From contig NZ_WHJG01000018.1 of assembly GCF_011682175.1 (NCBI RefSeq), positions 62,001 to 126,000 on the forward strand: 64,000 nt of DNA. Direction: 5' to 3'. A model generated the notes under the pieces. The model was given only the letters and a program-made list of their open reading frames with translations. It searched no databases and was not told where the DNA came from. Source of the DNA: Massilia frigida. Its GTDB lineage: Bacteria > Pseudomonadota > Gammaproteobacteria > Burkholderiales > Burkholderiaceae_D. Both the position numbers and the translations under genes were made by a program. This document shows, one piece after another, positions 5,292 to 30,428 of this stretch; the stretch's first letter is position 1; each line of letters opens with the position of its first letter.

Positions 5292-6470
5292 TTGCGACGT
5301 TTCGAATATGACCAGGGCGCGTCCGACAAATTCTGGGAAGTCGACCAGGACGGCTGCGATGTCCATGTCCGCTACGGCAAGGTGGGCGCGGCGGGACAAC
5401 GGCAAACCAAGACCCATCCGGACCACGCCACGGCGGCGGCGATGGACAAGCTGATTCGCGAAAAAACCGGCAAGGGCTACGCTGAAAGCAGCGCGGCGCC
5501 CTGGCTGGCGGTCGAGCCGCTGGTCGACATCTCGCCCGAGCTGGCGGCGCTGGCGATGCCGTCGCGCCGGTTTCCCGGCGTAACGCGCGACATCGACATC
5601 TGCGCCGAACGGGACAATTCAGGCTACTCTATCTACGACAATTACAGCGAGGGCGACATGCTATTGCGTGAGCAGGCCTCGACGTGCTGGCCATGATCGG
5701 CAGCGACACTGCCCTGATGCTCCTGCACGGGATCGCGCAAAAGGTCAAATTCCAGGCACTGCAGCACCACGCCTACGACAAAATCGGCGAGATCGCTGCG
5801 GCGCTCGAACTAAGCACCGAGGAACTGGAAGAGCGCCTGGTGCCCGACCTGGACCTGGACCCACAGGGCGAAATGCAGCTCGACTTCGGCTCGCGCCAGT
5901 TCCGCGCCGGCTTCGACGAGGCGCTCAAGCCTTGCCTGCGCAATGCGCAGGGCGCACGCCTGGACCAGCTGCCCAAGCCGAAAAAGACCGACGACGCCGA
6001 ACTGGCGGCAGCCGCCGTGGAGCGCTACAAGCTGCTCAAGAAAGACGCGCGCACCATCGCCGCCCAGCGGGTGCTGCGCCTGGAACAGGCGATGTGCGGG
6101 CGGCGGCGCTGGACGGTGCAAGCCTTCCGTTACTTCCTGGCCGGCCACCCGCTGCTGCGCCACCTGGTGCTGGGACGGCGCCGTGGTCAGTACCGGGCGT
6201 CTGCTTGGCCTGGCCGAACGGGGCTGGCACCGCGACATCGGCAGCGGCGGCGAAGCGTTTGAATTTTCAAGGTGGCTCGGCCAGGGCAAGGTGGCGCACG
6301 TGCACATCGCACCGGGCCTGACGACAGGGCTGATCAACGCTGACAAGGCGCAGATGCTGGTCAGGCTGGTTCTCGAACACTACAGCGTCGACGCGGGCGC
6401 GCGCTTGTCCGTGCTGGACCCGGTCGTTGTCGGCGAATTTATCCGGGTGATGGAGCAGTTATGCGCATGA
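5292..6470 (+). pseudogene. WGR-DUF4132 array unit 1: relic with two out-of-frame deletions
   Basis: Starts with a WGR domain (RRFEYDQGASDKFWEVDQDG, residues 2-70) and the family motif APWLAVEPLVDIS ... PSRRFPG. Near 5670 the frame ends in ASTCWP. The next frame over continues with GLDVLAMIGSDTALMLLHG from the C-terminal half of the family, so about 2.5 kb is missing. That frame carries the DUF4132 start (LDFGSRQFRAGFDEALKP, LPKPKKTDDAEL) to LLRHLV near 6165. A second frame-changing deletion then joins it to the end module (WDGAVVSTGRLLGLAERGW ... MEQLCA, stop 6470). The start codon is TTG where intact units have ATG. It could at most make short fragments. Confidence 0.85.
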
Positions 6471-6502
6471 GCGGACCATTGGCACACTATACAGGCAGGT
6501 AA

Positions 6503-9500
6503 ATGATGCGGCGACTTGAATTTAATGATGGCGTTTCCAGCAAATTCTGGGAAATCGAACAGGCCGGCGACGCCCTGCATATCGGCTTCGGCAAGATCGG
6601 CACGGCCGGACAGCGCCAATCCAAGAACCACGCCGACGCAGCCAGGGCGGCGGCGGCGATGACTAAGCTGATCGGCGAAAAAACCGCCAAGGGCTACGCT
6701 GAAACCAGCGCAGCGACGGCCGCCGTGGCGACGGCCGCCGTGGCCACTCCCGCTGCGGTCAAGGCCGTGGCCCCGAGGGCTGCACCAGTTGCGCCGGTTG
6801 CGCCGGTTACGCCGGTTGCGCCGGTTGCGCCGGTTACGCCGGCGGCGCCGGGTGACGCGCCGCCCTGGCTCGACGCCGATCCGCAGTTCGAGTTAACGCC
6901 CGCACTGGCCGCCCACGCCCTACCCTCGCGCCGCCACCCCGGCCCGCCGCCGAGCACCGACAGCGACGCGCGCTGGGCGCTGTTCCTCGAGCGTGTGCGC
7001 GCCCATTGCGTACTGCGGGCGACCGGCTGCGACGCCAGTTTGAAGGAGGGCGTGATCGAGGCCATCGCCCGCATCGCCAAGGGCAAGCGGCTTGGTTCAC
7101 CAGCGTCCGATGTCATCCTGCTGGCCACGGAGATCATCAACGAAAAACAGCGGCCAGCGGCCGAAGGCTGCCCGTTCATCGATGTGCTGGTCGCCGACAA
7201 GGGGCTGGCGTACGCCTTCGATATCCTGATCATGCTGCAACGCGTCGGCATCGAGGAACAGAGCCGATGGAGCGCCGAGTCGTGGAACAAGGTCGAGACC
7301 AGGGAAGCCGGGCCCTTTGCGCTGTACGGCCTCACCCAACTGGGGTTGCGCGCCCACCTGGCGCACGCCCCGCAGGCGCTGTGGGAGCAAGCGGTCCAGC
7401 GCGCGCGCGAGGCGGCCGGGGCGCTGCCCTCGCGTTCCCTGCCGCTGCTGGCCGCGCTGCTGCCGGACGCGCCGCAACTGGCTAACGAACTGGCTCTGAT
7501 GCTGGCGCCCGAACCAGACTATGAAGGCGGCCGCTGGTGGTGCTGCAACTACAGCTGGCTGATCGCGTACGCCACATCGCCCGAGGCGCGCCAGGCGTTG
7601 CGCCTTTGGCCGCCGCACCAGCGCCTGTCGCCGCGCGACTTCGACAGCTCCTTGATGAGCGTGGCCACCGCATTGCGCGACCGCGGCCCCGGAGCGCTCG
7701 AAGCGCTCGAAGGCGGCCGGGGCGCGGACGCCGCGCAACAGGCCCTGGCCTGCATCGGTACGCCGGAAGCGCTGCGCGCACTGGCATGGGGCTATGGAGA
7801 AAATTGGTTCACCCATATGTGCGCGGCCGGACAGCGATGGCCCGATGCTGCCATGGCGGCGCTGAGCGAATTGATTGGCAAGGACCACTGCGGACCGGGC
7901 GGCGCGCGTCCGGCCCTGGCCAGCGTCGTGGCAACCCACGCGCGCCGCGTGCCCGCCCTCAAACCATGGATTTCGGCGCCGGCGTGGGAAGTGCTGTCGG
8001 TCGCCGCCGCCCACTACCTCGGGGGCCGCGACTGTGCGGACCCGGGCGAACTGCCGCCGGTGCTGGCCGCGCCGCCGTGGTGCCAGCCGGCCACGCAAGA
8101 AGCGCAGCCGTTTGCGCTCGCCGCCTTGGCGCTCGATCCCGTCGTACGCTGGAGCGAGACCGAACGCGAACGCGTCGCCGACGACGGTTACCGCTACCAG
8201 GACTACCTCGTTCGCCGTCAATATCCGATGGCGGGCGCGGTGCAGGCGGTCGATGACATCGATACCGACGGCAGCCTGGCGCGCTGGGTCGACTGCCTCG
8301 ATCCGAACGAATGCCTTCAGGAGCAGGCGCGCGCGATCGCGGACTTGCCGGCACCGATGAATGCGCGCGTATGGAACGCGGTGGCGCACATGGGCATGAC
8401 GCGCCCGGGCTACGCCATCGCCCGGCTCGGCGTGGACGCCCTGCCGGCCTTGGTCGACATGTTCACGTCGGCGCCAACGAGGGAAATGGAATATGTACAG
8501 TACTTCGGCGCGGTCGACCTGGCCGCGCCGGTGGCGCGCGCGTATGCGACGCTCAAGAGCAAGGCGCTGCTGGCCCAGGCGCGCGCCTGGCTGCTCGATT
8601 TTCCCGAGCACGCCGCCTGCGGCCTGATTGCCCCGGCCCTGGGCCAGGCGGGAGTGGAACGCGACCATGCGCGCCAATCCCTGCGCGTGCTGGCCGCCGC
8701 CGGCCATGCCGACCTGTTGCTGGACGTGGCCGCTCGCTACCGCCAGCCCGACGTCAGCGCCGCCATGCGCGCCATGCTCGGCCCAAGCCCGCTGCAGCGC
8801 TACCCGGCCAGGATCGGCAAGCTGCCGGCCTTCTGGACTGCGCTGGTATGGACCCGTCCCCTGCTGGCCGCCAGCGGCAAGGCCCTGCCGGATGACGCGA
8901 TGGATGCGATTGGCGTCATGCTGCGCTTCCCGCACGCCGACGGTGTGTATGCCGGGGTCGGCGAACTGAAACAAGCATGCACGCCCGATTCGCTGGCCGC
9001 TTTCGCCTGGGACCTGTTTCGCGCCTGGACCGACGACGGCGCCAAGGGCAAGGAAATCTGGGCGTTCCACGCACTTGGCCTGCTCGGTAACGACCAGAGC
9101 GCGCGCAGGCTTACCCGCCTGCTGTGCGACTGGCCCGGCCAGGGCCTGCACGCGCGCGCCGTCATCGGGCTCGACGTACTGGCGCTGATCGGCAGCGACA
9201 CCGCCCTGATGCTGCTCAATGGCGTGGCCCAAAAGCTCAAGTTCAAGCCGCTGCAGGACCGCGCGCAGGAAAAGATCAACGAGATCGCCGAGGCGCGCGG
9301 CTTGACCAGCGACGAACTGGAAGACCGCCTGGCGCCCGACCTTGGCCTGGATGAACAGGGAACGCTGCTGCTCGACTTCGGGCCGCGCCAGTTCCGGGTC
9401 GGCTTCGACGAAACGCTCACGCCGTTCGTGCGCGACAACGACGGCGCGCGCAGCGCCGACCTGCCCAAGCCGAAAAAGAGCGATGACGCCGACCTGGCGA

Positions 9501-10249
9501 CGGAGGCGGTCAAGCGCTTCAAGCTGCTCAAGAAGGATGCGCGCACCATCGCCGCGCAACAGGTGCTGCGCCTGGAACTGGCGATGTGCGCGCAGCGGCG
9601 CTGGCCGGTGCGGGTGTTTTACGATTGCATGGTGCGGCACCCGCTGGTGCGCCATCTGGCCCAGCGCCTCGTGTGGGGCATGTACGACACTACCGGCAGC
9701 CAGTTGCAGGCCTGCTTCCGGATCACGCCCGAAGGAACGCTCAGCGACGCCGCCGACGACGCCGTCGTGCTGGCGCAATGCATGGTCGGCATTCCGCATG
9801 CGCTCGCGCTGGCGCCGGCCGACGCCGCCGCCTTTGCCCAGCTGTTCGCCGATTACGAACTGCTGCAACCGTTCGCACAGCTCGGACGCGACACCTATGC
9901 CCTGGACCACGGGAACAACAATTCGGGGTTCGGCAGCTGGGAAGACAAGGTAGTGCCGACCGGGCGGCTGCTCGGCCTGTTGAACCAGGGCTGGCGGCTG
10001 GGTGAAACGCACGACAGCGCCATGATCTGGGACCTGCTCAAGGTGCCCGGCGGCGGCTACACCGCAACGCTGGACATCGCGCCCGGCATCCGGGCCGGCT
10101 CGGTGCACGAGTTTCCCGAACAAACGCTCGGCTCGCTGAGCATCGGGCGCGGCGGCCCGAAAGACATCCGCGAGAGCGTGGCCTGGTCGTCGCTCGACCC
10201 GACCATGGTCAGCGAGCTGATTCGCGACATGGAAAAGCTGTGCGCCTGA
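6503..10249 (+). CDS. WGR-DUF4132 array unit 2 (YehI/MolR-like), full length
   Basis: A 1,248-aa cytoplasmic protein. Residues 3-72 form a WGR domain (SSKFWEIEQAGDALHIGFG). Residues 73-124 are an Ala/Pro/Val linker with VAP/VTP repeats. A conserved block around 124-150 (PPWLDADPQ, ALPSRRHPGPP) opens a long helical, HEAT-like body to about 940. DUF4132 covers about 950-1130 (LLLDFGPRQFRVGFDETL, LPKPKKSDDADL, RRWPVRVFYDCM, HLAQRLVWGMYD). A C-terminal module ends in SELIRDMEKLCA. E. coli YehI and MolR share this architecture; the molybdate-regulator name is historical and no biochemical role is firm. WGR domains in PARPs bind DNA. The start is the double ATG at 6503. The stop overlaps the unit 3 start. 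Confidence 0.93.
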   Translation: MMRRLEFNDGVSSKFWEIEQAGDALHIGFGKIGTAGQRQSKNHADAARAAAAMTKLIGEKTAKGYAETSAATAAVATAAVATPAAVKAVAPRAAPVAPVAPVTPVAPVAPVTPAAPGDAPPWLDADPQFELTPALAAHALPSRRHPGPPPSTDSDARWALFLERVRAHCVLRATGCDASLKEGVIEAIARIAKGKRLGSPASDVILLATEIINEKQRPAAEGCPFIDVLVADKGLAYAFDILIMLQRVGIEEQSRWSAESWNKVETREAGPFALYGLTQLGLRAHLAHAPQALWEQAVQRAREAAGALPSRSLPLLAALLPDAPQLANELALMLAPEPDYEGGRWWCCNYSWLIAYATSPEARQALRLWPPHQRLSPRDFDSSLMSVATALRDRGPGALEALEGGRGADAAQQALACIGTPEALRALAWGYGENWFTHMCAAGQRWPDAAMAALSELIGKDHCGPGGARPALASVVATHARRVPALKPWISAPAWEVLSVAAAHYLGGRDCADPGELPPVLAAPPWCQPATQEAQPFALAALALDPVVRWSETERERVADDGYRYQDYLVRRQYPMAGAVQAVDDIDTDGSLARWVDCLDPNECLQEQARAIADLPAPMNARVWNAVAHMGMTRPGYAIARLGVDALPALVDMFTSAPTREMEYVQYFGAVDLAAPVARAYATLKSKALLAQARAWLLDFPEHAACGLIAPALGQAGVERDHARQSLRVLAAAGHADLLLDVAARYRQPDVSAAMRAMLGPSPLQRYPARIGKLPAFWTALVWTRPLLAASGKALPDDAMDAIGVMLRFPHADGVYAGVGELKQACTPDSLAAFAWDLFRAWTDDGAKGKEIWAFHALGLLGNDQSARRLTRLLCDWPGQGLHARAVIGLDVLALIGSDTALMLLNGVAQKLKFKPLQDRAQEKINEIAEARGLTSDELEDRLAPDLGLDEQGTLLLDFGPRQFRVGFDETLTPFVRDNDGARSADLPKPKKSDDADLATEAVKRFKLLKKDARTIAAQQVLRLELAMCAQRRWPVRVFYDCMVRHPLVRHLAQRLVWGMYDTTGSQLQACFRITPEGTLSDAADDAVVLAQCMVGIPHALALAPADAAAFAQLFADYELLQPFAQLGRDTYALDHGNNNSGFGSWEDKVVPTGRLLGLLNQGWRLGETHDSAMIWDLLKVPGGGYTATLDIAPGIRAGSVHEFPEQTLGSLSIGRGGPKDIRESVAWSSLDPTMVSELIRDMEKLCA
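6788..6841 (+). repeat. Six 9-bp tandem repeats in the unit 2 linker
   Basis: GTTGCGCCG-GTTGCGCCG-GTTACGCCG occurs twice in a row (six 9-mers, 27-bp period). It encodes VAP VAP VTP twice, within the flexible linker between WGR and the helical body. The repeat count could change by slippage without breaking the frame. Confidence 0.9.
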
Positions 10250-12945
10250 CCGGCGCGCCGGTGGCGGCCGCACCGCCCTGGTCCGACGCCGATGCGGTGA
10301 TCGCGGCGCCGCCCGAACTGGCGGCGCACGCCCTGCCCTCGCGCCGCCACCCCGGTCCACCGTCTTGCGCGACCAGCAGGGAGCGATGGGTGCTGTTCCT
10401 GACCCGCATGCGCGAAAACTGCACCTTGCAAGCGGGCGGCGACGGCGCGCACCGGCCGGCCGTCATCGACACCATCGAGCGCCTCGCCAAGCGCCGCCAG
10501 CTTGGCACGCCGGAAACCGATACGATCCTGCTGGCGATGGAAAAAATTCACGAAAAAAAGCGGCCGGCGTCCGAAGGCTGTCCTTTTCTCGACGTACTGG
10601 TTGCGGACAAAGGCTTGCCGTATGCCTTCGACATCATGCTCAGGGCGCAGCGCATATACCTCGAACCGGCTGCCGGCCCCGATAAAAACGGCCATGAAGT
10701 GCACGCCAACACCGGCGGCACCCGTCAGCTCTATGGCATCACCGACCTGGCGCTGCGTGCCCATCTGGCGCAGGCCCCGCAACAGATCTGGGAACAATGC
10801 GTCCGGATGGCGCGCGACGCGGCCAAGGAACTGCATACCCGCACCCGTCCGCTGCTGGCCGTGCTGCTGCCCGATGCGCCGGAACTGGCCAACGAGCTGG
10901 CGCTGATGCCGCAGCCGGAGACGGACGACAAGGGGCGTGCGCAATGGTGCGGCAACGACGCCTGGCTGATCGTGTACGCCAGCTCGCCCGAAGCACGGCG
11001 CGCGCTGCGCCAGTGGCCGCGCGGCGAGGATCTGCGCGACGACGGCTTTTACCAATCGCCGCGCGCCGTCGCCACCGCATTGCAGGACCGCGGGTGCGAC
11101 GCTGTCGATGCGCTCAAGGACGGCGTAAAGTATGCGCAGACGGTACAGGCGCTGGCCTGTATTGGCACCCCGGAAGCGATCATGGCACTGGTGCAGGGCC
11201 ACGGCAAGCTGCCGCCCGACTATCTGGGCGGCGCCGGCCGGCGCTGGCCCGATGCCGCCATGGCGGCGCTGAGCCAACTGATCGCCAGGGATCACTGCGG
11301 CCCCGAGCGCGCGCGCCTGCTGCTGGCGGGCGTGGTGGCCACCCATGCGCACCGCGTTCCCGCCCTGCGGCCGTGGATTCCGGCGCCGGCCTGGAAGGTG
11401 CTGTCGGTTGCCGCCGCGCAGTACATCACGATGCGCGACTGCGTCGTCGCCAGCGAACTGCCAGCGGTGCTGGCCGCGCCTGCATGGGGCGAGATGGCCA
11501 GGGCCGGCCAGCTGCCGGCGTTCTGGACACCGCTGGTGTGGACCCGTCCTCTGCTCGCCGCCGGCGGCAAGGCGCTGCCCGATGACGCGATGGATGCGAT
11601 CGGCGCCATGCTGCGTTTCGCGCACGCCGACCGCGTGTACGCCGGCGTCACCGAACTGAAGGAAGCGTGCACGCCCGATTCGCTGGCCGATTTTGCGTGG
11701 GAGCTGTTCCGCGCATGGACGGAGGACGGCGCCAGCGGCAAGGAAATCTGGGCTTTCCACGCGCTCGGACTGCTCGGCGACGACGAGAGCGCGCGCAGGC
11801 TCACGGCGCTGGTGCGCGCCTGGCCCGGCCAGGGTCTGCACGCGCGCGCCGTCGTCGGCCTGGACGTGCTCGCGCTGATCGGCAGCGATATCGCCCTGAT
11901 GCTGCTCAACGGCGTCGCCCAAAAACTCAAGTTCAAGGCGCTGCAGGACCGCGCGAAGGAAAAGATCAAGGAAATCGCCGAAGCGCGCGGCCTGGCGAGC
12001 GAAGAACTGCAAGACCGTCTCGCGCCCGACCTCGGCCTCGATGAACAAGGCGCCCTGCTGCTCGACTTCGGCCCGCGCCAGTTCCGTGTCGGCTTCGACG
12101 AAACGCTCGCACCATTCGTGCGCGCGGCCGACGGCAAGCGCAGCGCCGACTTGCCCAAGCCGAAAAAGAGCGACGATGCCGATCTGGCGACGGCGGCGGT
12201 CAAGCGCTTCAAGCTGCTCAAGAAGGATGCGCGCACCATCGCCGGTCAGCAGGTGCTGCGGCTGGAGCTGGCCATGTGCGCGCAGCGGCGCTGGCCGGTG
12301 CGGGTGTTTTACGATTGCATGGTGGCGCACCCGCTGGTGCGCCACCTGGCCCAGCGCCTTGTATGGGGCGTGTACGACGCCAATGGCGGCCAGTTGCAGG
12401 CCTGCTTCCGGGTCACGCCGGAAGGAGCGCTCAGCGACGCCAATGACGACGCCTTCGTGCTGGCGCAAGACGCGGTCGTCGGCATTGCCCACGCGCTCGC
12501 GCTGGCGCCAGCCGACGCCGACGCCTTCGCCCGGCTGTTCGCGGACTACGAGCTGCTGCAGCCATTCGCGCAGATCGGCCGTGACACGTACACCCTGGAC
12601 GACCTCGAAAAGAAGCATCATGCGCTCGGCCGCTGGAACGGCACGGTGGTTCCTACCGCAAGCCTGCTCGGCCTGCTCAACCAGGGCTGGCGGCGCGGCA
12701 AAATGCAGGATGGCGGCACGATCTGGCAAATCGTCAAGGTCCTCGGCAGCGGATATACCGCGACACTGGATTTCGCACCCGGCATCATGGTTGGCATGCC
12801 AGGCGACAGCGCGGAACAAACGCTTGGCGGCGTTGTGATCGCGTGCGCGGGCCAAGCAGGCATGCGCCCCAGCGTGCCGTTGGCGTCGCTCGATACAGCG
12901 GCCGCCAGCGAACTGATTCGGGAACTAGTGCGACTATGCGCATGA
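10240..12945 (+). CDS. WGR-DUF4132 array unit 3: WGR-less, internally deleted, in frame
   Basis: A 901-aa paralogue. The frame opens at GTG 10240 inside the last codons of unit 2 (GTGCGCCTGA overlaps the unit 2 stop) and goes straight into APPWSDADAVIAAPPELAAHALPSRRHPGPP, so WGR and linker are absent. At about 11,500 AAPAWGE joins GQLPAFWTPLVW. Unit 2 has about 740 bp between the matching points, an in-frame loss of about 247 residues. DUF4132 (from about residue 606) and the C-terminal module are intact and very close to unit 2, with long identical runs such as RRWPVRVFYDCMV. No Shine-Dalgarno is seen, so translation would depend on coupling to unit 2. It may be a functional short variant or a decaying copy that has kept its frame. 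Confidence 0.8.
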   Translation: MRLTGAPVAAAPPWSDADAVIAAPPELAAHALPSRRHPGPPSCATSRERWVLFLTRMRENCTLQAGGDGAHRPAVIDTIERLAKRRQLGTPETDTILLAMEKIHEKKRPASEGCPFLDVLVADKGLPYAFDIMLRAQRIYLEPAAGPDKNGHEVHANTGGTRQLYGITDLALRAHLAQAPQQIWEQCVRMARDAAKELHTRTRPLLAVLLPDAPELANELALMPQPETDDKGRAQWCGNDAWLIVYASSPEARRALRQWPRGEDLRDDGFYQSPRAVATALQDRGCDAVDALKDGVKYAQTVQALACIGTPEAIMALVQGHGKLPPDYLGGAGRRWPDAAMAALSQLIARDHCGPERARLLLAGVVATHAHRVPALRPWIPAPAWKVLSVAAAQYITMRDCVVASELPAVLAAPAWGEMARAGQLPAFWTPLVWTRPLLAAGGKALPDDAMDAIGAMLRFAHADRVYAGVTELKEACTPDSLADFAWELFRAWTEDGASGKEIWAFHALGLLGDDESARRLTALVRAWPGQGLHARAVVGLDVLALIGSDIALMLLNGVAQKLKFKALQDRAKEKIKEIAEARGLASEELQDRLAPDLGLDEQGALLLDFGPRQFRVGFDETLAPFVRAADGKRSADLPKPKKSDDADLATAAVKRFKLLKKDARTIAGQQVLRLELAMCAQRRWPVRVFYDCMVAHPLVRHLAQRLVWGVYDANGGQLQACFRVTPEGALSDANDDAFVLAQDAVVGIAHALALAPADADAFARLFADYELLQPFAQIGRDTYTLDDLEKKHHALGRWNGTVVPTASLLGLLNQGWRRGKMQDGGTIWQIVKVLGSGYTATLDFAPGIMVGMPGDSAEQTLGGVVIACAGQAGMRPSVPLASLDTAAASELIRELVRLCA

Positions 12946-12972
12946 ACAGCCACCTACGACACAATACAAACA

Positions 12973-16416: not shown

Positions 16417-16452
16417 GACGGCGCCGGCACTAGTTAACATTCAGGACACGCG

Positions 16453-18015: not shown

Positions 18016-18050
18016 GCGGCGCGACCACACTTTTATATTCAGGATGAACG

Positions 18051-21000: not shown

Positions 21001-21737
21001 GCAGCATCGCGGATCAGCAGGTACGGCGGCTGGAAATGGCCATGTGTGCACAGCGGCGATGGGAGCCGGCCATCTTCCAGCGCTTCCTGGCCGGCCACCC
21101 GCTGGTGCGCCATCTGGTGCAGCGGCTGGTGTGGGGCGCTTATGACATGGAACCGGGCGCCAGCCACGGTGGCCGTCTGCTGGGCTGCTTCCGGGTCGGC
21201 CCGGATGGCGCCCTGACCGACGCCGCCGACGACACCTGGCCACTACCGCAGGGCGAAAACATCCGCATCGGCATTCCGCATGCGCTCGACCTGCCGGCGC
21301 AGGATGCAGCAGGCTTCGGCCAGCTGCTGGCCGACTACGAGCTGGTGCAACCGTTTGCGCAGATCGGGCGCGACACCTACACGCTGACCGCCGACGAACT
21401 GGCCGCCAGCGCGCTCACGCGCTGGGAGGGCATCGAGGTGCCTGTCGGGCGCCTTCTGGGCCTGGCGCACAAGGGCTGGGACCGTGGCGACGCGCAGGAT
21501 GCCGGCTTCGTCTTCGATTTCAACCGGCCGCTCGGTGACGGGCGCACCGTGGCGCTGCGTTTCGGTCCGGGTCTGATGCTCGGCTCGATCATGGATTCGG
21601 AAGACCAGATCATGGAACAGGTCAGTATCGGCAGCGCCGGGGCCTGGAGCAGCTTCGACAAGGGCCAGCCGCTATCGACGTTAAGCCCCATCGCCGCCAG
21701 TGAACTGATTCGCGACATGGAGGCACTGTGCGCCTGA
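18051..21737 (+). CDS. WGR-DUF4132 array unit 6, full length
   Basis: A 1,228-aa paralogue. WGR at 1-70 (SSKFWGVSRDGSDVTVCFG), then an Ala/Pro/Val linker (about 70-100), then APWLAVSPLIDMP and PSRRFPGAAP opening the helical body. DUF4132 covers about 925-1110 (LLLDFGPRQFRIGFDEAL, LPKPNKSDDAAL, HLVQRLVWGAYD). The C-terminal module (VGRLLGLAHKGWDRGD) ends SELIRDMEALCA. AGGATGA precedes ATG 18051, 35 bp after unit 5. Its stop overlaps the GTG of unit 7 exactly as unit 2 overlaps unit 3. Closest in wording to units 5 and 9 in the WGR and central blocks. Confidence 0.93.
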   Translation: MRRFELSDGVSSKFWGVSRDGSDVTVCFGKIGTAGKVQTKNHPDAATAGAAMAKLIREKAGKGYAETGAGSPVATAAASVPASVPVAAPTPASDIAPWLAVSPLIDMPATMMALALPSRRFPGAAPAIDADASWNLFLAHARQCAPLSSALSASGWRPAMDEAAQRIEHGQRDGSAASDIVLLALSTTFDDLLAPSDGVPFIDFLVASEGVAYALDALLQMERISVCQQGLRNPGIRIDDDAGQWFAPTENVFGKTELALRAHLAHAPQGVWDACVQLVRDGLPSLAAHRRALFGVLLPDALGLSDAIVAAAGPVYPTSMAWLRLTVRDAASMRALDTIKACDDFYLFAWYDKPELIATAIQDRGTDAVAALRDGAGADLAADAIASIGTPEAIRALASITAKKAIKRLTAASARWPLAAIAGLAELTATDKRAPGAARSVLAALVPQHLAALPALTPWLSAAAIKMLDGLAGRLEVPADAAGTSDLPAVLANPPWLARAKSANKALTLEILPLAPVERWSDAERQRVLRERRLIVYTHGGSGFKTPNDTSAIAAGDVAGVVACWENYRQRGHEMANSVHAIAKLPPPFNAAVWAAMAKHDINSPGHAIGSMGLDALPGLAVMCERRPVEELKYAMYFGAVELAAPVARALAVLKSKAVRDMARSWLLANPEHAACGLTAPALGKAGAARDAAASALRLLAANGHEAMLIAVAGRYGQEAVNAAMRAMLDEDPLDRFPSKIAALPAFWMPRSWTRPLLAANGKPLPDEALDLIGVMLRFPQTDGVYAGIEQVRQACTPDSLSRFAWDLFSAWADAGGDAKNNWAFTALGLFGGDDCARKLTPLIRAWPGESQNARAIAGLDILATIGTDLALLLLNGIAQKVKFKALQENARDQIAQIAEARNLSTDELEDRLAPDLGLDDDGALLLDFGPRQFRIGFDEALRPCIRDALGVRLADLPKPNKSDDAALSAAATERFKALKKDARSIADQQVRRLEMAMCAQRRWEPAIFQRFLAGHPLVRHLVQRLVWGAYDMEPGASHGGRLLGCFRVGPDGALTDAADDTWPLPQGENIRIGIPHALDLPAQDAAGFGQLLADYELVQPFAQIGRDTYTLTADELAASALTRWEGIEVPVGRLLGLAHKGWDRGDAQDAGFVFDFNRPLGDGRTVALRFGPGLMLGSIMDSEDQIMEQVSIGSAGAWSSFDKGQPLSTLSPIAASELIRDMEALCA

Positions 21738-22940
21738 AACCCACTTCCCGGCCAGCCGCAGGCGATTCTACCGGCCTGCCTGCGGTACTCGTGAACCCAC
21801 CGTGGATGGCGCCGCGCATGGCGCGCGCCAAGCCCCTGGCACTAGCGCCGCTGGCCCATCCCCTGGACGCACAACGCGAGCCGGCGCCGAAGAAAAAGCA
21901 GCTTCCCAAGCGCAGGCCTTCGGCGGTACGCGTGGTCAAACCAAGCAATGAACATGTTATCGACGCCGGTAACGTGGCATTGGCGGCGCGTCTTTACGCC
22001 AGCGGCAAGACTGAACACGACATGGCGCAGCACTGGCTGCTGTCCAACCCGGAACGCGCCGCGTACGCGCTGATCGCGCCTGGCGGACCTGCCCAAGCCG
22101 AAGAAAACCGACGACGCAGCCTTGTCAGCACGGGCGATCGAGCGCTTCAAACTTCTCAAGAAGGATGCGCGCACCATCGCCGCGCAACAGGTATTGCGCC
22201 TCGAGAGCGCCATGTGCACGCAGCGGCGCTGGCATCCGCATGCCTTCCGCGCCTTTTTGGCGACGCACCCGCTGCTGCGCCACCTGGTGCAACGCCTGGT
22301 GTGGGGCACCTACAGCACTGATGGCGAGCGCCTGCTGGCCTGCTTCCGGGTCACGGCGGACGGCGCCTTTACCGATGCCGGCGACAACGCCATCGACCTG
22401 CCCGGCGACGACAGCGTGCGGATCGGCGTGCCACATGCGCTCGACCTGGCGAGCGCCGATGCCGCCGCCTTCGGCCAGCTGTTCGCCGACTACGAACTGC
22501 TGCAACCGTTCGCGCAGATCGGCCGCGACACGCACCACCTCGAGGCCGGCGAACGCGGCGAACACGCGCTGCGGCGCTGGGAAGGACGCAGCGTCACCAC
22601 CGGCGCCCTTCTCGGCCTGCTCAACCGCGGCTGGCGGCGTGGCGAAGCGCAGGATGGCGGTTCGATCTGGGACTTCCGCAAGCCGCTCGGCGCAGGCGCC
22701 ATGGCGTCGCTCGGCATCGCCCCCGGCATCGTGGTCGGCATGATGCGCGAAGGGGAAGTGCAGACCGTCGGACCCGTCCTGGTCGGGCGCGTGGGACAAT
22801 GGGACACCCTCGACACGTCCGTCGCCCTTGGCGCGCTGCCGGCGGTCGCGGTCAGCGAATTGATCCGCGATATGGAATATGTATGCGCCTTACCCGGCCG
22901 GCACAGCGACACTGACAGGACACATGATGCGGCGATTTGA
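21728..22940 (+). pseudogene. WGR-DUF4132 array unit 7: relic, frameshifted and read into unit 8
   Basis: Opens at GTG 21728 over the unit 6 stop and lacks WGR and the N-terminal body. It joins near GLPAVLVNPPW (late helical body), keeps a shortened central block to ALIAP, and at about 22,080 switches frame into LADLPKPKKTDDAALSARA of DUF4132. From there (about 22,085-22,900) the C-terminal half of DUF4132 and the end module are well preserved (HLVQRLVWGTYS, LLGLLNRGWRRGEAQ, SELIRDMEYVCA). The family stop after CA has become a sense codon, so this frame runs on to 22940, past the ATG of unit 8 (22924). Internal initiation could still give a C-terminal fragment. Confidence 0.83.
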
Positions 22941-25900
22941 ATTGAGTGATGGCGTTTCCGACAAATTCTGGGAAGTCGAGCAGGCTGGGTGCGACGTCAA
23001 CGTCTGCTACGGCCGGATCGGCACTGGCGGCCAGCGCCAGTCCAAAACCCACGCGGACGAGGCCATGGCCGCTGCGGCCCTGGCAAAACTGGTGCGTGAA
23101 AAGACCGCCAAAGGCTACGTGGCGACGACGTCCGGCGCATGCATGCAGGCGCCGCCGGCACCCATGCCCACCCCTGTCAAACCTGCGCCGAGCGTACCGG
23201 CGCCGCTACCGTCGCCACCGATGCCCGTAGCGCCCGCACCATCGCTCGTCGGCATGGCCGCGCCATGGCTGGCCGCTGGGCCGGCACTCGATATCCCGCC
23301 CGATATCGCCGCGCTGGCCCTGCCCTCGCGCCGCTTTCCCGGTGCGCCGCCACAGGGCGACGCCGAGCGCGCATGGGCGGTGTACCTCAAGCATGCGCGC
23401 CAATTCTGCCCAGCAGGCGTCGATATGTGCGATAAAGACCTGCGCGATGGCGTTGCCGAGGCCACCCGGCGCATCGAGCAGGGTTCGCGTGACGGCAGCC
23501 TGCTGTCTGACGCCATCATGTTGTCGGTCTCCGCGCGATTCCGACTGCCCTGCGATGGCAGCGACGGGTTTCCCTTCCTTGACTTCCTGGCCGCAGAAAA
23601 AGGATTGCCACATGCGCTGGAAGTGCTGCTGACAGCACTGGAAAACGTGGTGGCCGAGCAACTGCTCGACACCTCGGGCGCCGAGCCGGTCGCGTGCTGG
23701 CGGGTGCGCGCGCCGGGTGATGAAATCCACCGCTTGACGACAACCGAGCTGGCATTGCGACGGCACCTCGCGCACGCCAGCCAGATCGACTGGGACCGGT
23801 GCGTGCACCTGGCCCGCGCCAATGTAGTGCGCCTGCCGCCACGGCGGCGTCCCCTGCTGGCCGTTATCCTGCCCGACGCCACCGACCTCGCCGACCTGAT
23901 ACTGCAGAACAGCGCAAACCCGATGGATACCGTCTCCATGTGGATGAACCTGATGACCGCTTCCCCTCTGGTCAGCATGGCGCTGATCTCGATCGAGGCC
24001 ACTGGCAGCAGGCTGTCGGACGACGACGCCCACACTGCCCTGGCCACGCTGGTCCAGGAGCGCGGTAGCGGGGCCATCGCACTGCTGCAAAGGTGCACCG
24101 AAACCGACCGGCTTGCCGAAGCGCTGATCTGGTTCGGCACGCCGGAGGCGATCCAGGCGCTGGGCCGCGACCTGATCCTCGCGGGCGACTATTTTGTGCG
24201 CCAGCGCAGCATCAATGCGCGCCTGCGCCTCCAGCGCGCCGTGCAGCGCTGGCCGCTGGCGTCAATTGCCGGCCTGGCTGAACTGATTGCCGCCGACCAG
24301 CAGGTTCCCCACCTGTTCCGCGCAATGCTGATCACACTCGCCTACGACCACGCCGACAACCTGGCCGCTTTCAGGCCATGGATTTCGGCACCGGCGGCAG
24401 CCTTGCTCGACAGCCTAGCGCCGGACCATGCCAGCCACGCGCTGGCCGACAGTGCCGATCTGCCGCCCGTGCTGGCCAATCCGCCCTGGCTGGCGCCGCG
24501 CAAAAAAGCGGCGCCAGCCCTGTCGCTGGCAGCGCTGCCGCTCGCTCCTGTCGAGCGCTGGAGTGACGACGAGCGCGAGCAAATGCGCATGGACGAGCGC
24601 CTCACCATCTACCCCTATCTCGACCATACTCACAGCGCGCCGAGCCAGGCTGGCGCAGCCATCGCGGCCGGCGACGTGCCCGCCCTGATCGCCATATGGG
24701 AGCAGGCGGCGCGCAATCGCGAGTACTTCAGCGCTTGCGTGCGCATCATCGCGGACATGCCCGCGCCGTTCAGCCTGGCGGTATGGAATGCATGCGCCCA
24801 GCACCCGATCAATTCCCCCGGCTATGCGGTTGCCACCTTCGGCCTGCGTGGCCTGCCCGCCCTGGTGGCCATGTGCGAGCACCACCCGGCCGAAGCCTTG
24901 CGTTATACGCGCCACATCGGTGCGGTCGAACTGGGTCTGCCGATTGCGCGCGCCTACATGACACTGAAGACCAAGGCCATACGCGCCAGCGCGCGCGAGT
25001 GGCTGCTGGCGTATCCCGAACACGCAGCCTGCGCCCTGCTTGCGCCTGCGCTGGGCAAGGCCGGCAGCGCGCGCGAACACGCCGCCGATACCTTGCGCAT
25101 GCTGGCCGCCGCAGGCCACGATGTCCTGTTGATGGAGGTGGCCGCGCGCTACGGGCAACTGGCGGCCGGCACCGCGCTGCGCGCCCTGCTCGACCAACAT
25201 CCGCTTGACCTCTACCCTGCCAAATGGGGCGCGGCACCGCAATTCTGGCGTCCGCGCGACTGGCCCCGCCCGCGCCTGGCCAGCAACGGCAAGGCACTGC
25301 CGGATGCGGCGATCGAAGCGTTCGGCGACATGCTGCGCTTTCCCCGTAACGAGCGCGTGTACGCCGGCCTGGCCCAGGTACAGCGGGCCTGCACGCCGGA
25401 CTCGCTGACCACGTTTGCATGGAATCTGTTCCGCGCATGGGAGGACGATGGCGGCAGCGCGAAGGATAACTGGGCGTTTTCCACCCTCGGCATCCTGGGT
25501 GACGACGCCATCGCCGACAAGATCGGCCCCATGGTGCGGGCCTGGCCGGCCGAAGCCCTGCATGCGCGCGCTGCCGGCGGCGTCGAGGTGCTGGGCGCGA
25601 TCGGCACCGATGCCGCCCTTCTGCAATTGAGCGCGATCGTGCGCCACTTCCATTCCGGCAGCCTCAAGGAAGCGGCGCGCGCGAAAATGGCGCAGATCGC
25701 CGAGGCGCGCGACATGCCCCCCGAAGAACTGGAAGACCACCTTGCGCCCGACCTTGGACTGGACCAGCAAGGCGTCCTGCGGCTCGCCTTCGGTACCCGC
25801 CACTTCGTGGTCGGCTTCGACGAAGCCTTGCGTCCCGTCGTGCGCGACCAGTATGGCACGCAGCTGTCGGATTTGCCCAAGCCCCGGCAAAGCGATGATG

Positions 25901-26670
25901 AGGCGCTGTCGCGCGCGGCAGTGGAGCGCTACAAGCAGCTCAGGAAAGATGCGCGCAGCATCGCCTCGCTTCAGGTAAACCGCCTGGATGCGGCCATGCG
26001 TACCCGGCGCCGCTGGAGCGTGGACAACTTCATGAAGCTCATCGCCGGCCATCGGCTGGTGCGCCACCTGGCGCAGCGCCTGGTGTGGGGTATGTATCGC
26101 GACCAGCGCCTGCAAGCATGCTTCCGGCTCGGTGCCGACGGTGCCCTCACCGATGGCGCCGACGATGCTTTCTTGCTGGCGCAGGAGGACGGCATTGTCG
26201 TCGGCATCCCCCATCCGCTCGATATGCAGGGCGGCGACCTGGCCGCGTTCGACCAGCTGTTCACCGATTATGAACTGACGCAGCCGTTCACGCAGATCCA
26301 CCGCGCGACGTATGCGCTCGACCCTGCCGAACTGGCGTCGGACCGGCTGCTGCGCTGGGACGGCATGGTAGTAGCAAGCGGCAGCATCATGGGCCTGGCG
26401 AACCGGGGCTGGCGCCGTGGCCGCACGCTCGAGCGCAGCTTCGTTCGCGAATTCAGCAAGCCCCTGGGCGATGGTCGCCTGGCCCAGTTGCAGTTCGAGC
26501 CGGGCATCGTGATCGCCGCAATGGACCAGTATCCCGAACAGACCGTGCAACTGGTGCTGTTCGGCGACTCCGACCGGCATGGCAATGTCGACCCGGGCGT
26601 GCCGCTGGCCCAGCTCGACCCGGTGGCGGCCAGCGAACTGATTCGCGACATCGAACTGCTGCGCGCCTGA
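22924..26670 (+). CDS. WGR-DUF4132 array unit 8, full length, most divergent
   Basis: A 1,248-aa paralogue from the double ATG at 22924 (AGGACAC just upstream); a frame open from 22879 belongs to the tail of unit 7. WGR at 2-72 (SDKFWEVEQAGCDVNVCYG), a Pro-rich linker (about 75-115), APWLAAGPALDIP and PSRRFPGAPP, then the helical body. DUF4132 covers about 950-1130 with several changes at usually invariant positions (LRLAFGTRHFVVGFDEAL, LPKPRQSDDEAL, RTRRRWSVDNFM). The end is SELIRDIELLRA. The intact frame over 1,248 codons indicates a live gene; the divergence suggests an older copy than units 2-4. Confidence 0.92.
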   Translation: MMRRFELSDGVSDKFWEVEQAGCDVNVCYGRIGTGGQRQSKTHADEAMAAAALAKLVREKTAKGYVATTSGACMQAPPAPMPTPVKPAPSVPAPLPSPPMPVAPAPSLVGMAAPWLAAGPALDIPPDIAALALPSRRFPGAPPQGDAERAWAVYLKHARQFCPAGVDMCDKDLRDGVAEATRRIEQGSRDGSLLSDAIMLSVSARFRLPCDGSDGFPFLDFLAAEKGLPHALEVLLTALENVVAEQLLDTSGAEPVACWRVRAPGDEIHRLTTTELALRRHLAHASQIDWDRCVHLARANVVRLPPRRRPLLAVILPDATDLADLILQNSANPMDTVSMWMNLMTASPLVSMALISIEATGSRLSDDDAHTALATLVQERGSGAIALLQRCTETDRLAEALIWFGTPEAIQALGRDLILAGDYFVRQRSINARLRLQRAVQRWPLASIAGLAELIAADQQVPHLFRAMLITLAYDHADNLAAFRPWISAPAAALLDSLAPDHASHALADSADLPPVLANPPWLAPRKKAAPALSLAALPLAPVERWSDDEREQMRMDERLTIYPYLDHTHSAPSQAGAAIAAGDVPALIAIWEQAARNREYFSACVRIIADMPAPFSLAVWNACAQHPINSPGYAVATFGLRGLPALVAMCEHHPAEALRYTRHIGAVELGLPIARAYMTLKTKAIRASAREWLLAYPEHAACALLAPALGKAGSAREHAADTLRMLAAAGHDVLLMEVAARYGQLAAGTALRALLDQHPLDLYPAKWGAAPQFWRPRDWPRPRLASNGKALPDAAIEAFGDMLRFPRNERVYAGLAQVQRACTPDSLTTFAWNLFRAWEDDGGSAKDNWAFSTLGILGDDAIADKIGPMVRAWPAEALHARAAGGVEVLGAIGTDAALLQLSAIVRHFHSGSLKEAARAKMAQIAEARDMPPEELEDHLAPDLGLDQQGVLRLAFGTRHFVVGFDEALRPVVRDQYGTQLSDLPKPRQSDDEALSRAAVERYKQLRKDARSIASLQVNRLDAAMRTRRRWSVDNFMKLIAGHRLVRHLAQRLVWGMYRDQRLQACFRLGADGALTDGADDAFLLAQEDGIVVGIPHPLDMQGGDLAAFDQLFTDYELTQPFTQIHRATYALDPAELASDRLLRWDGMVVASGSIMGLANRGWRRGRTLERSFVREFSKPLGDGRLAQLQFEPGIVIAAMDQYPEQTVQLVLFGDSDRHGNVDPGVPLAQLDPVAASELIRDIELLRA

Positions 26671-26722: not shown

Positions 26723-26759
26723 ATCATATGCAGTCCCTGATAAAGCCAATGACGAGAAC

Positions 26760-29700
26760 ATGAGACGATTTGAATTGAACGATGGCGTGTCCAGCAAATT
26801 CTGGGAAGTCACGCAAGATGGCAGCAGTGTCACGGTGTGCTTCGGCAAAATCGGCAGCAGCGGCAAGGCGCAGACCAAACATCACCCTGACGTGGCCGGC
26901 GCCGCGGTGGCGATGGATAAACTGATACGCGAAAAAACCGGAAAGGGCTACGTCGAAACCGGCGCCGGCACCGTTGTGCAGGCAGCCACGCCCGCGCCGT
27001 TGCCCGCCATAGCACCAGCGCATGAACCAGCGCCCGTGCCACCAGCCGGCATCGCGCCATGGCTTGCGGTGTCGCCCTTGATCGATGTGCCGCCCGCACT
27101 GATGGCGCTTGCCCTGCCGACGCGCCAGTACCCTGGAACGCCACCGGTGCTCGACGCCGACAAGAGCTGGACACGATTCCTGAAACGCGCACGGGAAGTG
27201 CCGCGCATTGATGCCAAACACTGCTGTCCTTTGCGCAAAGAGGCAATCGTTGAAGCGACAATCCGTATTGAACAGGGCTTGCGCAGCGGTTCGGCCGCGT
27301 CCGACGTCATTCTGCTGGCTGCGTCGACCGTCTTCGACCGGGAGAACGCCGTTTGCGCCGACACGAACTTCCTCGACTTCCTGGTGGCGGAAAAAGGGCT
27401 TCCCTACGCCTTGCTCACTTTAATTGAGCTGGAAAAAATCAATATCGATCTGGGCGCGTCGCACCGGCATGAAATCTCCATGTGGAATGCGGAATATCGG
27501 TCTTCTGAAGGAACTTTCGGCGCGTATTCCAACGTCGAACTGGCGCTGCGCACCCATCTCGTCCATGCGCCGCAGGACGTATGGCAAACATGCGTGCAGA
27601 TCGTGCGCGATAAGCTGAACGATATTCCGCTCAGGCGGCAGCCATTATTCCCCGTGTTGCTACCCGATGCGCCCGAGCTGTCCGACGCCATGGTCCAGCG
27701 CGGCGACTATCTGCACGACATGACTGGATGGCTGCGCATGACCGTGCGCGAGCCCGAAAGCCTGGCCTTGCTCGACAGCGTCAGCGCTACCTACACCCTC
27801 TTTTATGACAAGCCGGCATTCATCGCCACGGCGATCAGGGACCGCGGCGTCGATGCGATAGCAGTGCTCAAACATGGCGTGAGCGTCGGGATCACCGCCG
27901 ATGCCATCGCCGGTATCGGCACGCCGGACGCCATCCGCGCACTCGCACTGGCCTGCGGCATGGACAACGGCAGTCCCTCCCGGCTCGCAGCGGCAGCGAA
28001 GCGCTGGCCATGGGCGGCCCTTGCCGGCTTGAGCGAACTGCTCGGCCACGACAAGCAAGCCCCTGGTTTGGCGCGGTCGGCCTTGAGCCGCCTGGTTCCC
28101 GACCATATTGCAGACCTGCCCGCGTTGCGCCCATGGCTCTCGCCCGCCGCGCTCACCGTGCTTGACGATATGGCGGCGCGCTTCTGCGCTCCGGGCGACA
28201 TGGCCCACAATGCCGATTTACCGGCGGTGCTCCAAAACCCGCCATGGATGGCGGCCCGCAAACCACGCCCCAAGGCGCTCCATCTGGCACCTTTGTTCCT
28301 GCCGCCGGTCGAACGCTGGAGCGCCGAAGAGCGCCAGTCGGTGCTCGACGAGAGGCGCCATAAATATAACCCGTATGAACAGACCAGCTTTGTCACGCCG
28401 GCCGATCTGATTACCGCCGGCGATGTCGATGCTGTCGTCGCGCTGTGGAAAACGCACCAGAACCCGCGCATGAACCTCCATGCCGAAGTGCGGCTGATTG
28501 CCGATCTGCCGCCGCCGTTCAACAAGGCTGTGTGGACGGCGTTGGCAAAGCACGAGTTCAATTCCCCCGGATATGCGATCGCCACGCTTGGCCTGGACTG
28601 CCTGCCGGGCCTGGTCACCATGTGTGAACTACGGCCGCAAGAAGACTTGTGCTACGCGCTGCACTTCGGCGCCGTGGAGCTGGCGTTCCCGGTCGCGCAC
28701 GCAATGGCGACACTGAAGAACAAGCCTGCCCGCGCAATCGCGCGCCGCTGGCTTCTGGCCAACCCGGAACACAGCGCCTGTGCACTGATCGCACCTGCCT
28801 TGGGCAAGGCCGGCAAGGCGCGCGACGACGCCGCCGCCGCACTGCGCCTGCTGGCTGACAATGGCCACGGCCAGGTAGTGACGGACGTCGCGCGCCGTTA
28901 TGGGAGCGCGGCGGTCGACAGCGCCATGAAAGCGATGCTCGACGAAGACCCGCTCGACCTCCATCCTGCCAACATCCCCACCCTGCCGGGCCTGTGGGCG
29001 CCGCGCAGCTGGTACCGACCTCGCCTGCGCAGCAACGGCAAACCATTGTCCGACGAGGCGCTCGGCCTGATCGGCATCATGCTGCAATTCCCGCGCAGCG
29101 AGGGGGTGTATGCCGGGCTCGAACAGGTGCGGCAAGCCTGCACGCCGGCGTCGCAGAACGCCTTTGCATGGGACCTGTTGCGCGCCTGGCTCGACCTCGG
29201 CGGCGACCCATCCGAAAAATGGGCGTTGACCGCCCTCGGCGTCTTCGGCAATGACGACAGCGCCCGCAAGCTCACGCCGCTGATTCGCGCATGGCCTGGC
29301 GAAAGCCTGCATGCGCGCGCCGTGATCGGACTCGATGTGTTGGCCGGCATCGGGACCGACCTGGCGCTGATGCTCCTGAACGGCGTCGCGCTCAAGCTCA
29401 AGTTCAAGGCGCTGCAGGACAGCGCGCGCGAAAAAATCAAGCTGATCGCCGACGCGCGCGGCCTGACGCAGGAGGAACTGGAAGACCGCCTGGCGCCCAC
29501 GTTGGGACTGGACGATCAAGGCTCGCTGCTGCTCGATTTCGGTCCGCGCCAGTTCCGGGTTGGCTTCGACGAAGCGCTGAAACCATTTGTGCGCGACGCC
29601 GGCGGCATGCGCCTGGCCGACCTGCCCAAGCCGAACAGGAGCGACGATACGAACCTGGCGGCAAGCGCTGTGGATACCTACAAGCTGCTCAAGAAGGATG

Positions 29701-30428
29701 CCCGCAGCATCGCCGCGCAACAGGTAAAACGGCTGGAAGCGGCGATGTGCTCGCGCCGCCGCTGGGACGGCGACGCCTTTCTCGCGCTGCTGGCCAGGCA
29801 TCCGCTGGTGCGGCACCTGGTCCAGCGCCTCGTATGGGGCGTCTACCAAGCCGATTCGTCTTGCGGGGGGGGCCTGGCCGGCTGCTTTCGGGTCGGCCCC
29901 GACGGCGCACTGACGGACGCCGCCGACGACGCCTACGTCATGCCGCCAGGGGCGCGCGTCGGCATCGCGCATGCGCTCGAGCTGCCCGCCAGCGATGCGG
30001 ACGCATTCGGCAAGCTGTTTGCGGATTATGAATTGCTGCAGCCCTTCCCCCAGATCGGCCGCGAGACATATGCGTTGACGCAGGACGAACTGGCCACCAA
30101 TGAACTGCTGCGCTGGGTGCACCTGGAAATGCCGGCCGACCGTCTGATGGGTTTGACGAACAAAGGCTGGCATCGGGGAAAAGCACGCGACGCCGGTGGC
30201 ATCTGGGCTTACAACAAGGATATCGGCGCGGGGTGGACCGTGGAGCTGGGGATCTATCCGGGCCTGGACGTGAATAACCTCAACGACAACTCGGAACAGA
30301 CTTTACAGGCGGTCAAGGTCGGCACGATCAACCAATGGGGTGACATCGGCACGCCGCAGCCGCTGTCGGTGCTCGATCCGGTTGCCGCCAGCGAGCTGAT
30401 TCGCGATCTCGAATTGTTGCGCGCATGA
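26760..30428 (+). CDS. WGR-DUF4132 array unit 9, full length
   Basis: A 1,222-aa paralogue and last of the array. WGR at 1-70 (SSKFWEVTQDGSSVTVCFG), an Ala/Pro linker to about 98, APWLAVSPLIDVP and the variant PTRQYPGTPP at the body entrance. The helical body is followed by DUF4132 from about residue 922 (LLLDFGPRQFRVGFDEAL, LPKPNRSDDTNL, HLVQRLVWGVYQ) and a tail ending SELIRDLELLRA. It follows an 89-bp gap holding a 17-bp tandem repeat, so it may have its own control. The MoxR gene starts 52 bp downstream, placing it next to the machinery it presumably works with. Confidence 0.93.
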   Translation: MRRFELNDGVSSKFWEVTQDGSSVTVCFGKIGSSGKAQTKHHPDVAGAAVAMDKLIREKTGKGYVETGAGTVVQAATPAPLPAIAPAHEPAPVPPAGIAPWLAVSPLIDVPPALMALALPTRQYPGTPPVLDADKSWTRFLKRAREVPRIDAKHCCPLRKEAIVEATIRIEQGLRSGSAASDVILLAASTVFDRENAVCADTNFLDFLVAEKGLPYALLTLIELEKINIDLGASHRHEISMWNAEYRSSEGTFGAYSNVELALRTHLVHAPQDVWQTCVQIVRDKLNDIPLRRQPLFPVLLPDAPELSDAMVQRGDYLHDMTGWLRMTVREPESLALLDSVSATYTLFYDKPAFIATAIRDRGVDAIAVLKHGVSVGITADAIAGIGTPDAIRALALACGMDNGSPSRLAAAAKRWPWAALAGLSELLGHDKQAPGLARSALSRLVPDHIADLPALRPWLSPAALTVLDDMAARFCAPGDMAHNADLPAVLQNPPWMAARKPRPKALHLAPLFLPPVERWSAEERQSVLDERRHKYNPYEQTSFVTPADLITAGDVDAVVALWKTHQNPRMNLHAEVRLIADLPPPFNKAVWTALAKHEFNSPGYAIATLGLDCLPGLVTMCELRPQEDLCYALHFGAVELAFPVAHAMATLKNKPARAIARRWLLANPEHSACALIAPALGKAGKARDDAAAALRLLADNGHGQVVTDVARRYGSAAVDSAMKAMLDEDPLDLHPANIPTLPGLWAPRSWYRPRLRSNGKPLSDEALGLIGIMLQFPRSEGVYAGLEQVRQACTPASQNAFAWDLLRAWLDLGGDPSEKWALTALGVFGNDDSARKLTPLIRAWPGESLHARAVIGLDVLAGIGTDLALMLLNGVALKLKFKALQDSAREKIKLIADARGLTQEELEDRLAPTLGLDDQGSLLLDFGPRQFRVGFDEALKPFVRDAGGMRLADLPKPNRSDDTNLAASAVDTYKLLKKDARSIAAQQVKRLEAAMCSRRRWDGDAFLALLARHPLVRHLVQRLVWGVYQADSSCGGGLAGCFRVGPDGALTDAADDAYVMPPGARVGIAHALELPASDADAFGKLFADYELLQPFPQIGRETYALTQDELATNELLRWVHLEMPADRLMGLTNKGWHRGKARDAGGIWAYNKDIGAGWTVELGIYPGLDVNNLNDNSEQTLQAVKVGTINQWGDIGTPQPLSVLDPVAASELIRDLELLRA

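Follow-up and report, generated by a model that had tools for sequence, protein, structure and literature searches.

Pairs formed by a MoxR AAA+ ATPase and a von Willebrand factor A (VWA) protein are described (PMC3893208) as chaperone-like and devoted to dedicated client complexes. In Escherichia coli K-12, members of both families are encoded in the yeh locus, which consists of yehF, the pseudogene yehH, yehI, yehK and the genes yehL-M-P-Q. To our knowledge, no function has been established for yehI-L-M-P-Q, although these genes are present in nearly every E. coli genome. An expanded relative of this locus lies in a stretch of 64,000 nucleotides from Massilia frigida (assembly GCF_011682175.1, contig NZ_WHJG01000018.1, positions 62,001 to 126,000; hereafter "the window"), which is part of a 133-kb contig in a 7.8-Mb draft genome of 255 contigs. 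Here, DUF4132 genes (PF13569; "units" U1 to U9) stand in a head-to-tail, plus-strand row at approximately 5253-30428 and run directly into genes for MoxR, DUF5682, VWA and SWIM zinc-finger proteins (the "core"; Table 1). On balance, the locus probably encodes a MoxR-VWA machine of the YehL type together with the several WGR-solenoid-DUF4132 proteins that it serves, as adaptors or clients.

The observation at the center of this reading is an imbalance in copy number. DUF4132 was counted in 27 + 15 genomes drawn from 80 loci, and the core was counted in 25 chosen genomes; 24 of these 25 hold 2-18 DUF4132 matches and exactly one full-length DUF5682 gene of the yeh type, an author-defined class with scores of 300-390 bits, the other type scoring approximately 900 bits to PF18934. 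The exception, G707, has two yeh-type DUF5682 genes plus a fragment of a third. The one-core pattern also holds in the window genome, with one yeh-type DUF5682 gene and ten DUF4132 matches by profile search, eight of which (one partial) are in the window. A long partner array beside one machine suggests that the machine serves many specialized partners.

Linkage of units and core is strong well beyond the genus. All 15 yeh-type DUF5682 loci that were retrieved from further genomes in this family have one or more units adjoining the core, and the five fetched loci of the other DUF5682 type all possess MoxR and VWA genes and lack both a DUF4132 unit and a SWIM gene. Among the best 80 named loci found with DUF5682, which are the highest-scoring ones and not a random sample, a unit (score of at least 40) was found within 10 kb in 73, MoxR in 79, VWA in 78 and SWIM in 76; one of the seven loci lacking a unit, L095, starts at a contig end. 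Judging from their titles, these loci belong to Pseudomonadota, Actinomycetota, Acidobacteriota and Myxococcota, the myxococcal loci with a unit being only L139 and, probably, L123, which has a piece of one at its edge. DUF4132 itself is sparse, with matches in 33 of the 294 family genomes and in 11 of the 398 that sample the phylum (the window genome is counted in both). In plasmid-collection records, several of them chromosome-sized, 30 match DUF5682 and 20 match U6. On the 76-kb, mobilizable plasmid pl1 of Iodobacter fluviatilis (L197), the core, whose SWIM gene is annotated as two pieces, is accompanied by two DUF4132 genes, one full-length and the other truncated; a type I restriction system is nearby, as are insertion sequences.

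By its phylogeny, the array was amplified within this lineage, because array units and dispersed copies form one clade. Specifically, trees of the N- and C-terminal halves (42 rows) place 37 of 37 units of the five array species in a single clade, five dispersed units included (support 100 and 99). In a further tree, of 83 of the 116 units collected (33 were left out as near-identical, second-type or fragmentary), the second-type units discussed below fall outside the array clade, and three units of G282 form a clade of their own. The orphan full-length units G000:C185 (L033), G000:C122 (L034) and L035-L037 fall inside or beside the array clade. An earlier first-pass annotation, made by a model from the letters alone, had proposed that the DUF4132 partner was amplified, without a matching increase of the core, and that the units are linked genetically to the MoxR-VWA operon; the single clade, in which the units are each other's closest relatives, the 24 single-core genomes and the linkage beyond the genus agree with it at the level of sequence, where neither of the two refuting outcomes that it named was observed.

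A syntenic array was found in four of 16 other genomes of the genus. The number of full-length units (open frame of at least 1100 aa) is five in the window, six in G003, nine in G007, eight in G009 and two in G004, and all five arrays contain relics and size changes. Slots are shared between species, with U4 84-90% and U6 83-93% identical (the latter having an orthologue in all four array-bearing congeners), so the amplification predates these species, with loss afterwards. The array site is flanked by sel1 and metZ. This gap is approximately 100 bp and free of the array in G002 and G016, which are assembled in one and two contigs and are 97-99% identical in the lexA, metZ and purF proteins. 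The array is also absent from the sel1-metZ site in G001, G006, G008, G010, G012 and G015, and no DUF4132 match was found in G005, G011, G013 or G014. In a three-gene DNA tree of seven close species, of which five have the array and two lack it, G016 groups with the window genome (support 81/86). Judged from these comparisons, loss seems likelier than repeated gain at one site, and transfer by recombination of the flanks would also be possible. In G015 (L188), the sel1-metZ interval contains repeated motifs of the type AATCGGGGTCAGACCTCAATACTGAAA, direct and inverted, where relatives hold the array.

Unit expansion is not unique to the window. Next to its core, Glycomyces buryatensis carries a run of six units; Glycomyces artemisiae has five, while Actinomadura xylanilytica has 18 DUF4132 matches in its genome, largely dispersed. 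The tandem runs described here are the longest met, with nine full-length units in G007. The suggestion that an array of this size is undescribed thus stands for tandem length in the data searched, but not for expansion as such, given independent actinomycetotal runs of up to six units and up to 18 copies per genome.

The window array is less intact than its length implies. It was initially taken for nine tandem WGR-DUF4132 paralogues; a plus-strand row of one family is indeed present, but it comprises five full-length units of 1147-1248 aa (U2, U4, U6, U8 and U9), one shortened unit (U3) and three relics (U1, U5 and U7), which rules out nine intact genes. DUF4132 scores above the Pfam cut-off in the six long units and relic U7 and is not detected in U5; the U1 piece scored in the genome search and not in the frame used for the Pfam scan. 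Pfam finds WGR in U2, U6, U8 and U9 (four of the five full-length units) and in relic U5, and finds none in U3 or U4. The pieces of U1 are 57-85% identical to an orthologue still intact in three congeners (G003, G007 and G009), and U3 is missing approximately 170 residues of solenoid relative to its closest relative. An assembly artefact is an unlikely source of the units, to judge from their sequences, because those of one genome are mostly only 45-60% identical. Upstream of the array, the stretch around the promoter-like sites is visibly alike, by eye, in the window and in the array-bearing congeners G003, G004 and G009; there are four promoter-like matches in 4300-22000, against a shuffle mean of 1.5.

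Table 1. Array, core and related features. Coordinates are those of the window, except for the last four rows, which give contigs of congeneric genomes.
Feature	Coordinates	Strand	Remarks
Promoter-like sites before array	5157..5190	+	Consensus matches only
U1	5253..6470	+	Relic of "slot 1": WGR piece, frameshifts, deletion, partial DUF4132 at 5951-6169
U2	6503..10249	+	Full-length WGR-DUF4132 unit, 1248 aa
U3	10240..12945	+	WGR-less unit, in frame but shortened, 901 aa
U4	12973..16416	+	Full-length WGR-less DUF4132 unit, 1147 aa
U5	16453..18015	+	Relic, 520 aa; WGR kept, DUF4132 domain missing
U6	18051..21737	+	Full-length WGR-DUF4132 unit, 1228 aa
U7	21728..22940	+	Relic; only C-terminal DUF4132 part (22077-22634) in open frame
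U8	22924..26670	+	Full-length WGR-DUF4132 unit, 1248 aa (1263 if start at 22879)
U9	26760..30428	+	Full-length WGR-DUF4132 unit, 1222 aa
MoxR AAA+ ATPase	30481..31596	+	YehL type, 76% to YehL
DUF5682 protein	31593..33926	+	YehM type, 46% to YehM
VWA_CoxE protein	33923..35074	+	YehP type, 66% to YehP; MIDAS-like motif DQSGS
SWIM zinc-finger protein	35071..37032	+	YehQ type, 38% to YehQ; two CxC...CxH zinc-binding motifs
Second-type locus L032	G004:C1:465-481k		
Second-type locus L030	G009:C41		
Second-type locus L029	G007:C155		
Second-type locus L031	G003:C15		

The core is correspondingly well defined, and its early description as MoxR, DUF5682, VWA and double-SWIM genes following the array is borne out by coordinates and Pfam. 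The four genes overlap one another by 4 bp, and each protein matches its E. coli yeh counterpart across most of its length. The MoxR protein has an AAA_5 domain, in which GEPGTAKS and RFEEITR are conserved in more than 90% of 105 aligned sequences, and it is nearer to YehL than to RavA, the only two proteins compared, the RavA match covering just 46 residues (E 0.018). The overall layout, DUF4132 unit(s)-MoxR-DUF5682-VWA-SWIM on one strand, is that of E. coli yehF/H/I-yehL-M-P-Q. The window genome also holds a MoxR-DUF5682-VWA trio of the other type (G000:C178).

The E. coli locus is itself richer than the single yehI/molR gene with which it had been credited. E. coli Z135-6 has three tandem units annotated without damage; in K-12, unit 1 is matched by the first 197 bases of yehF (85%) and unit 2 by the final 1.8 kb of yehH (93%). 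These likenesses fit a scenario in which K-12 yehF/yehH would be the wreck of two units, produced by a deletion between tandem units and subsequent decay. By DNA matches, which do not necessarily represent intact copies, the core is present in 5311 of 5426 E. coli genomes (5155 over at least 80% of the query), yehI in 5283 and unit 1, which K-12 lacks, in 1614. Losses are also seen: the yeh locus is gone from strain KTa005, and in one branch of ST131 a resistance transposon interrupts it (PMC9334617).

Selection on the locus was assessed by pairwise dN/dS between species (Nei-Gojobori, own script), and the values indicate purifying constraint. For the core, they are 0.04-0.16 (MoxR), 0.11-0.28 (VWA), 0.16-0.23 (DUF5682) and 0.12-0.32 (SWIM); for the units, they are 0.12-0.23 (U6), 0.19-0.25 (slot g), 0.21-0.25 (slot f), 0.25 (U9), 0.25-0.31 (U4), 0.34 (slot d), 0.25-0.43 (U8) and 0.39-0.45 (slot 1), with units distant from the core tending to evolve faster. 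No 80-codon window has a dN/dS above 1, the highest being 0.83, in the eight of 12 gene sets that were windowed (slots d and U8, MoxR and VWA have whole-gene values only). The 23 invariant positions are kept in the six long units, except that U8 has one R-to-H change. Among the paralogues of three genomes, identity lies at 28-53% ahead of U4 residue 540 and at 53-77% over residues 540-960. Trees of the N- and C-terminal halves (42 rows, after removal of five relic or fragment rows; shorter relics, U1 and U5 among them, were never collected) recover the same slots, while some deeper branches differ. Shuffled or hypervariable N-terminal halves were rejected on these grounds, and the idea of a diversifying repertoire is not sustained: slots are orthologous across species and the N-terminal halves are not swapped between them. 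By these measures, the array does not look like the product of a fast arms race. The clearest recombination-like signal suggested by the alignments is in U9, which is 67-84% identical to its orthologue in the first half and 82-95% in the second, with the change near residue 600.

AlphaFold2 models of U4 (pLDDT 91.4) and the DUF5682 protein (pLDDT 89.6) are confident. The U4 model predicts a mainly helical solenoid with a C-terminal alpha/beta DUF4132 part that contains invariant H, D, R and Q residues. Neither model has a Foldseek match in the PDB at E <0.001, HEAT-type solenoids being frequent among the best-ranked rows, and PDB sequence profiles gave nothing significant; a known fold was rejected on this basis. 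The N-terminal part of DUF5682 has weak matches to the Tiki superfamily, namely to ChaN in ten of 56 members (best E 0.032) and to TraB in four of 56 (best E 0.21); a DUF5682-Tiki profile comparison was negative, as was its ChaN-TraB positive control.

Several other explanations can be weighed against these results. It is possible, if rather improbable, that the locus functions in biological conflict (anti-phage or other defense), the units sensing invader molecules and the MoxR-VWA machine acting as a switch, as proposed for the VMAP ternary systems. At one and the same site, close relatives either have the entire locus or lack it; this, the relics in every array, the sparse occurrence across the phylum sample and the restriction system beside the Iodobacter plasmid copy all point in this direction, as do proposals that MoxR-vWA ternary systems are conflict systems (PMC7159879 and PMC10907252). 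However, the flanks are housekeeping genes both here (lexA, metZ and purF) and in E. coli (metG and btsSR), E. coli has the core close to fixation, dN/dS is below 1 wherever tested, Pfam identifies no effector domain in the locus, and PADLOC matches none of eight proteins (all four core proteins and four of the long units; U8 and U9 were outside the set). Nor does the eLife text on ternary systems (Kaur 2020) mention WGR, SWIM, DUF4132, molR, yehL or yehM. No relatives were found among the phage and viral sequences searched, and a phage origin was rejected on that count. When flanking ORFs were compared with PADLOC for signs of a defense island (106 of 126 predicted ORFs, from 12 loci and three orphan-unit regions), 66 models match at E <=1e-8, a figure obtained without control flanks; among the 25 models listed, 18 are PD-T4-6 and four HEC-01A, and the others are C3a189 and mad6, each matched by one ORF, and mad3, matched by three. 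The flank Pfam families, among 25 of 125 listed, resemble ordinary metabolism and regulation.

The WGR domain binds nucleic acid, as known from work on PARP, and the domain is present in four of the five full-length units. WGR units could therefore bind damaged DNA or RNA, with the machine remodeling the complexes, and such a role in stress or nucleic-acid maintenance, unlikely as it is, draws on two further reports: Deinococcus DUF4132 and WGR genes are strongly upregulated upon depletion of the damage repressor DdrO (PMC8533742), and a molR1 and lepA double deletion slows E. coli growth (PMC4245954). Yet the same Deinococcus genes are not raised in irradiated irrE mutants (PMC8533742), some units have no WGR, and the putative array promoter lacks a LexA box, while two perfect boxes stand before lexA. 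The latter, at 3662-3694 of the window and directly before the gene, served as a positive control for the box search. Control of the array by LexA was rejected, with no box there and 14 boxes of at most one mismatch in the window against 13.9 expected. A role in metal or cofactor maturation, as in the historical link of molR to molybdate use, is very unlikely. E. coli molR was described as essential for molybdate utilization (Lee 1990) and the MoxR protein CoxD is required for a copper-molybdenum cluster (PMC3893208), but up to 18 units per genome are hard to explain in this way, and no flanking protein with a Pfam match, among ten ORFs of which some are shadow frames, points to molybdenum metabolism. 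The least probable account, already disfavored, is that the tandem amplification was selfish or neutral and added no function; the relics and size changes seen in all arrays and the absence of the whole locus from close relatives would be expected of it, whereas orthologous slots held at dN/dS 0.12-0.45 across species and the 23 maintained invariant positions would not.

According to the preferred reading, one machine with many partners, a YehL-type MoxR ATPase, its VWA co-factor and the DUF5682 and SWIM proteins would form a single remodeling machine, and the WGR-DUF4132 proteins would be its exchangeable adaptors or clients. The partners would dock via their common, conserved C-terminal half (solenoid and DUF4132), while the partner-specific function would reside in the N-terminal half, which is variable and frequently has a WGR domain that would serve for nucleic acid. 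Tandem duplication in the lineage would have generated a specialized unit set, separated by selection and eroded through deletion and decay. This mechanism supposes physical docking, a direction of remodeling, binding targets for the N-terminal halves and co-transcription of the locus. Several observations weigh against it. The 25 genomes were hand-picked, largely from loci with several units. G003, G004, G007 and G009 each have two DUF5682 genes of the same class, the additional one belonging to a second, deeply divergent locus with two to four tandem DUF4132 units, MoxR, its own DUF5682 and VWA, of which no match was found in the window genome. Linkage of units and core is not obligatory, because no core lies within the 19 kb fetched for any of the five dispersed full-length units, and gene order varies among the best 80 loci, with the unit only downstream in L106 and on the opposite strand in L139. 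Within the array, a further plus-strand site resembling a promoter occupies 6479-6507, immediately ahead of U2, and the profile of conserved C- and variable N-terminal halves is also seen among units of different genera and so is not array-specific. Finally, we know of no physical interaction between units and core.

It is tempting to go further and picture the yeh locus as a multi-receptor system, in which one MoxR-VWA switch would read up to 18 WGR-solenoid-DUF4132 receptors, adjoining and distant, each specialized for its own kind of signal (stress, nucleic acid or invader), the set having been amplified independently at least in Massilia and Actinomycetota; this wider proposal is tentative and rather doubtful. 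In either form, the pattern of one core and many units turns genes of "unknown function" into a testable machine-plus-partners hypothesis, and natural comparisons are at hand in sister species with zero to nine full-length tandem units and in E. coli strains that differ in unit number. No description of the system or its amplification was found in the published literature, most subscription journals lying outside the search, which returned almost nothing on DUF4132, nothing on DUF5682 and nothing joining the WGR domain and MoxR; MoxR, vWA and WGR occurred together only in jumbo-phage work, which concerns a different system.

Pfam holds VMAP models; none of them matches in the locus, and the VWA protein matches only VWA models (Pfam, E <=0.01). 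The VMAP/MoxR-vWA ternary systems (Kaur 2020) are alike in combining MoxR, VWA and a third component with variable helical parts, and the present locus differs from them in having no VMAP-type, peptidase or other effector domain by Pfam and a core that is nearly fixed in E. coli. Loci with the other DUF5682 type share the DUF5682-MoxR-VWA trio and differ by the absence of a DUF4132 unit and SWIM gene. The MoxR-VWA chaperone pairs, such as RavA-ViaA (the MoxR subfamilies include YehL), likewise have a MoxR AAA+ ATPase adjoining a VWA protein with a MIDAS-like motif; to these the window locus adds DUF5682, SWIM and DUF4132 partners, one of them amplified. Finally, the E. coli locus yehF/yehH/yehI-yehK-yehL-yehM-yehP-yehQ has the same gene order and families, tandem units and, in K-12, relics. 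No yehK counterpart turned up in the window, where no search was aimed at one, and the E. coli locus occupies a different chromosomal site and has no more than three units in any strain whose annotation was examined.

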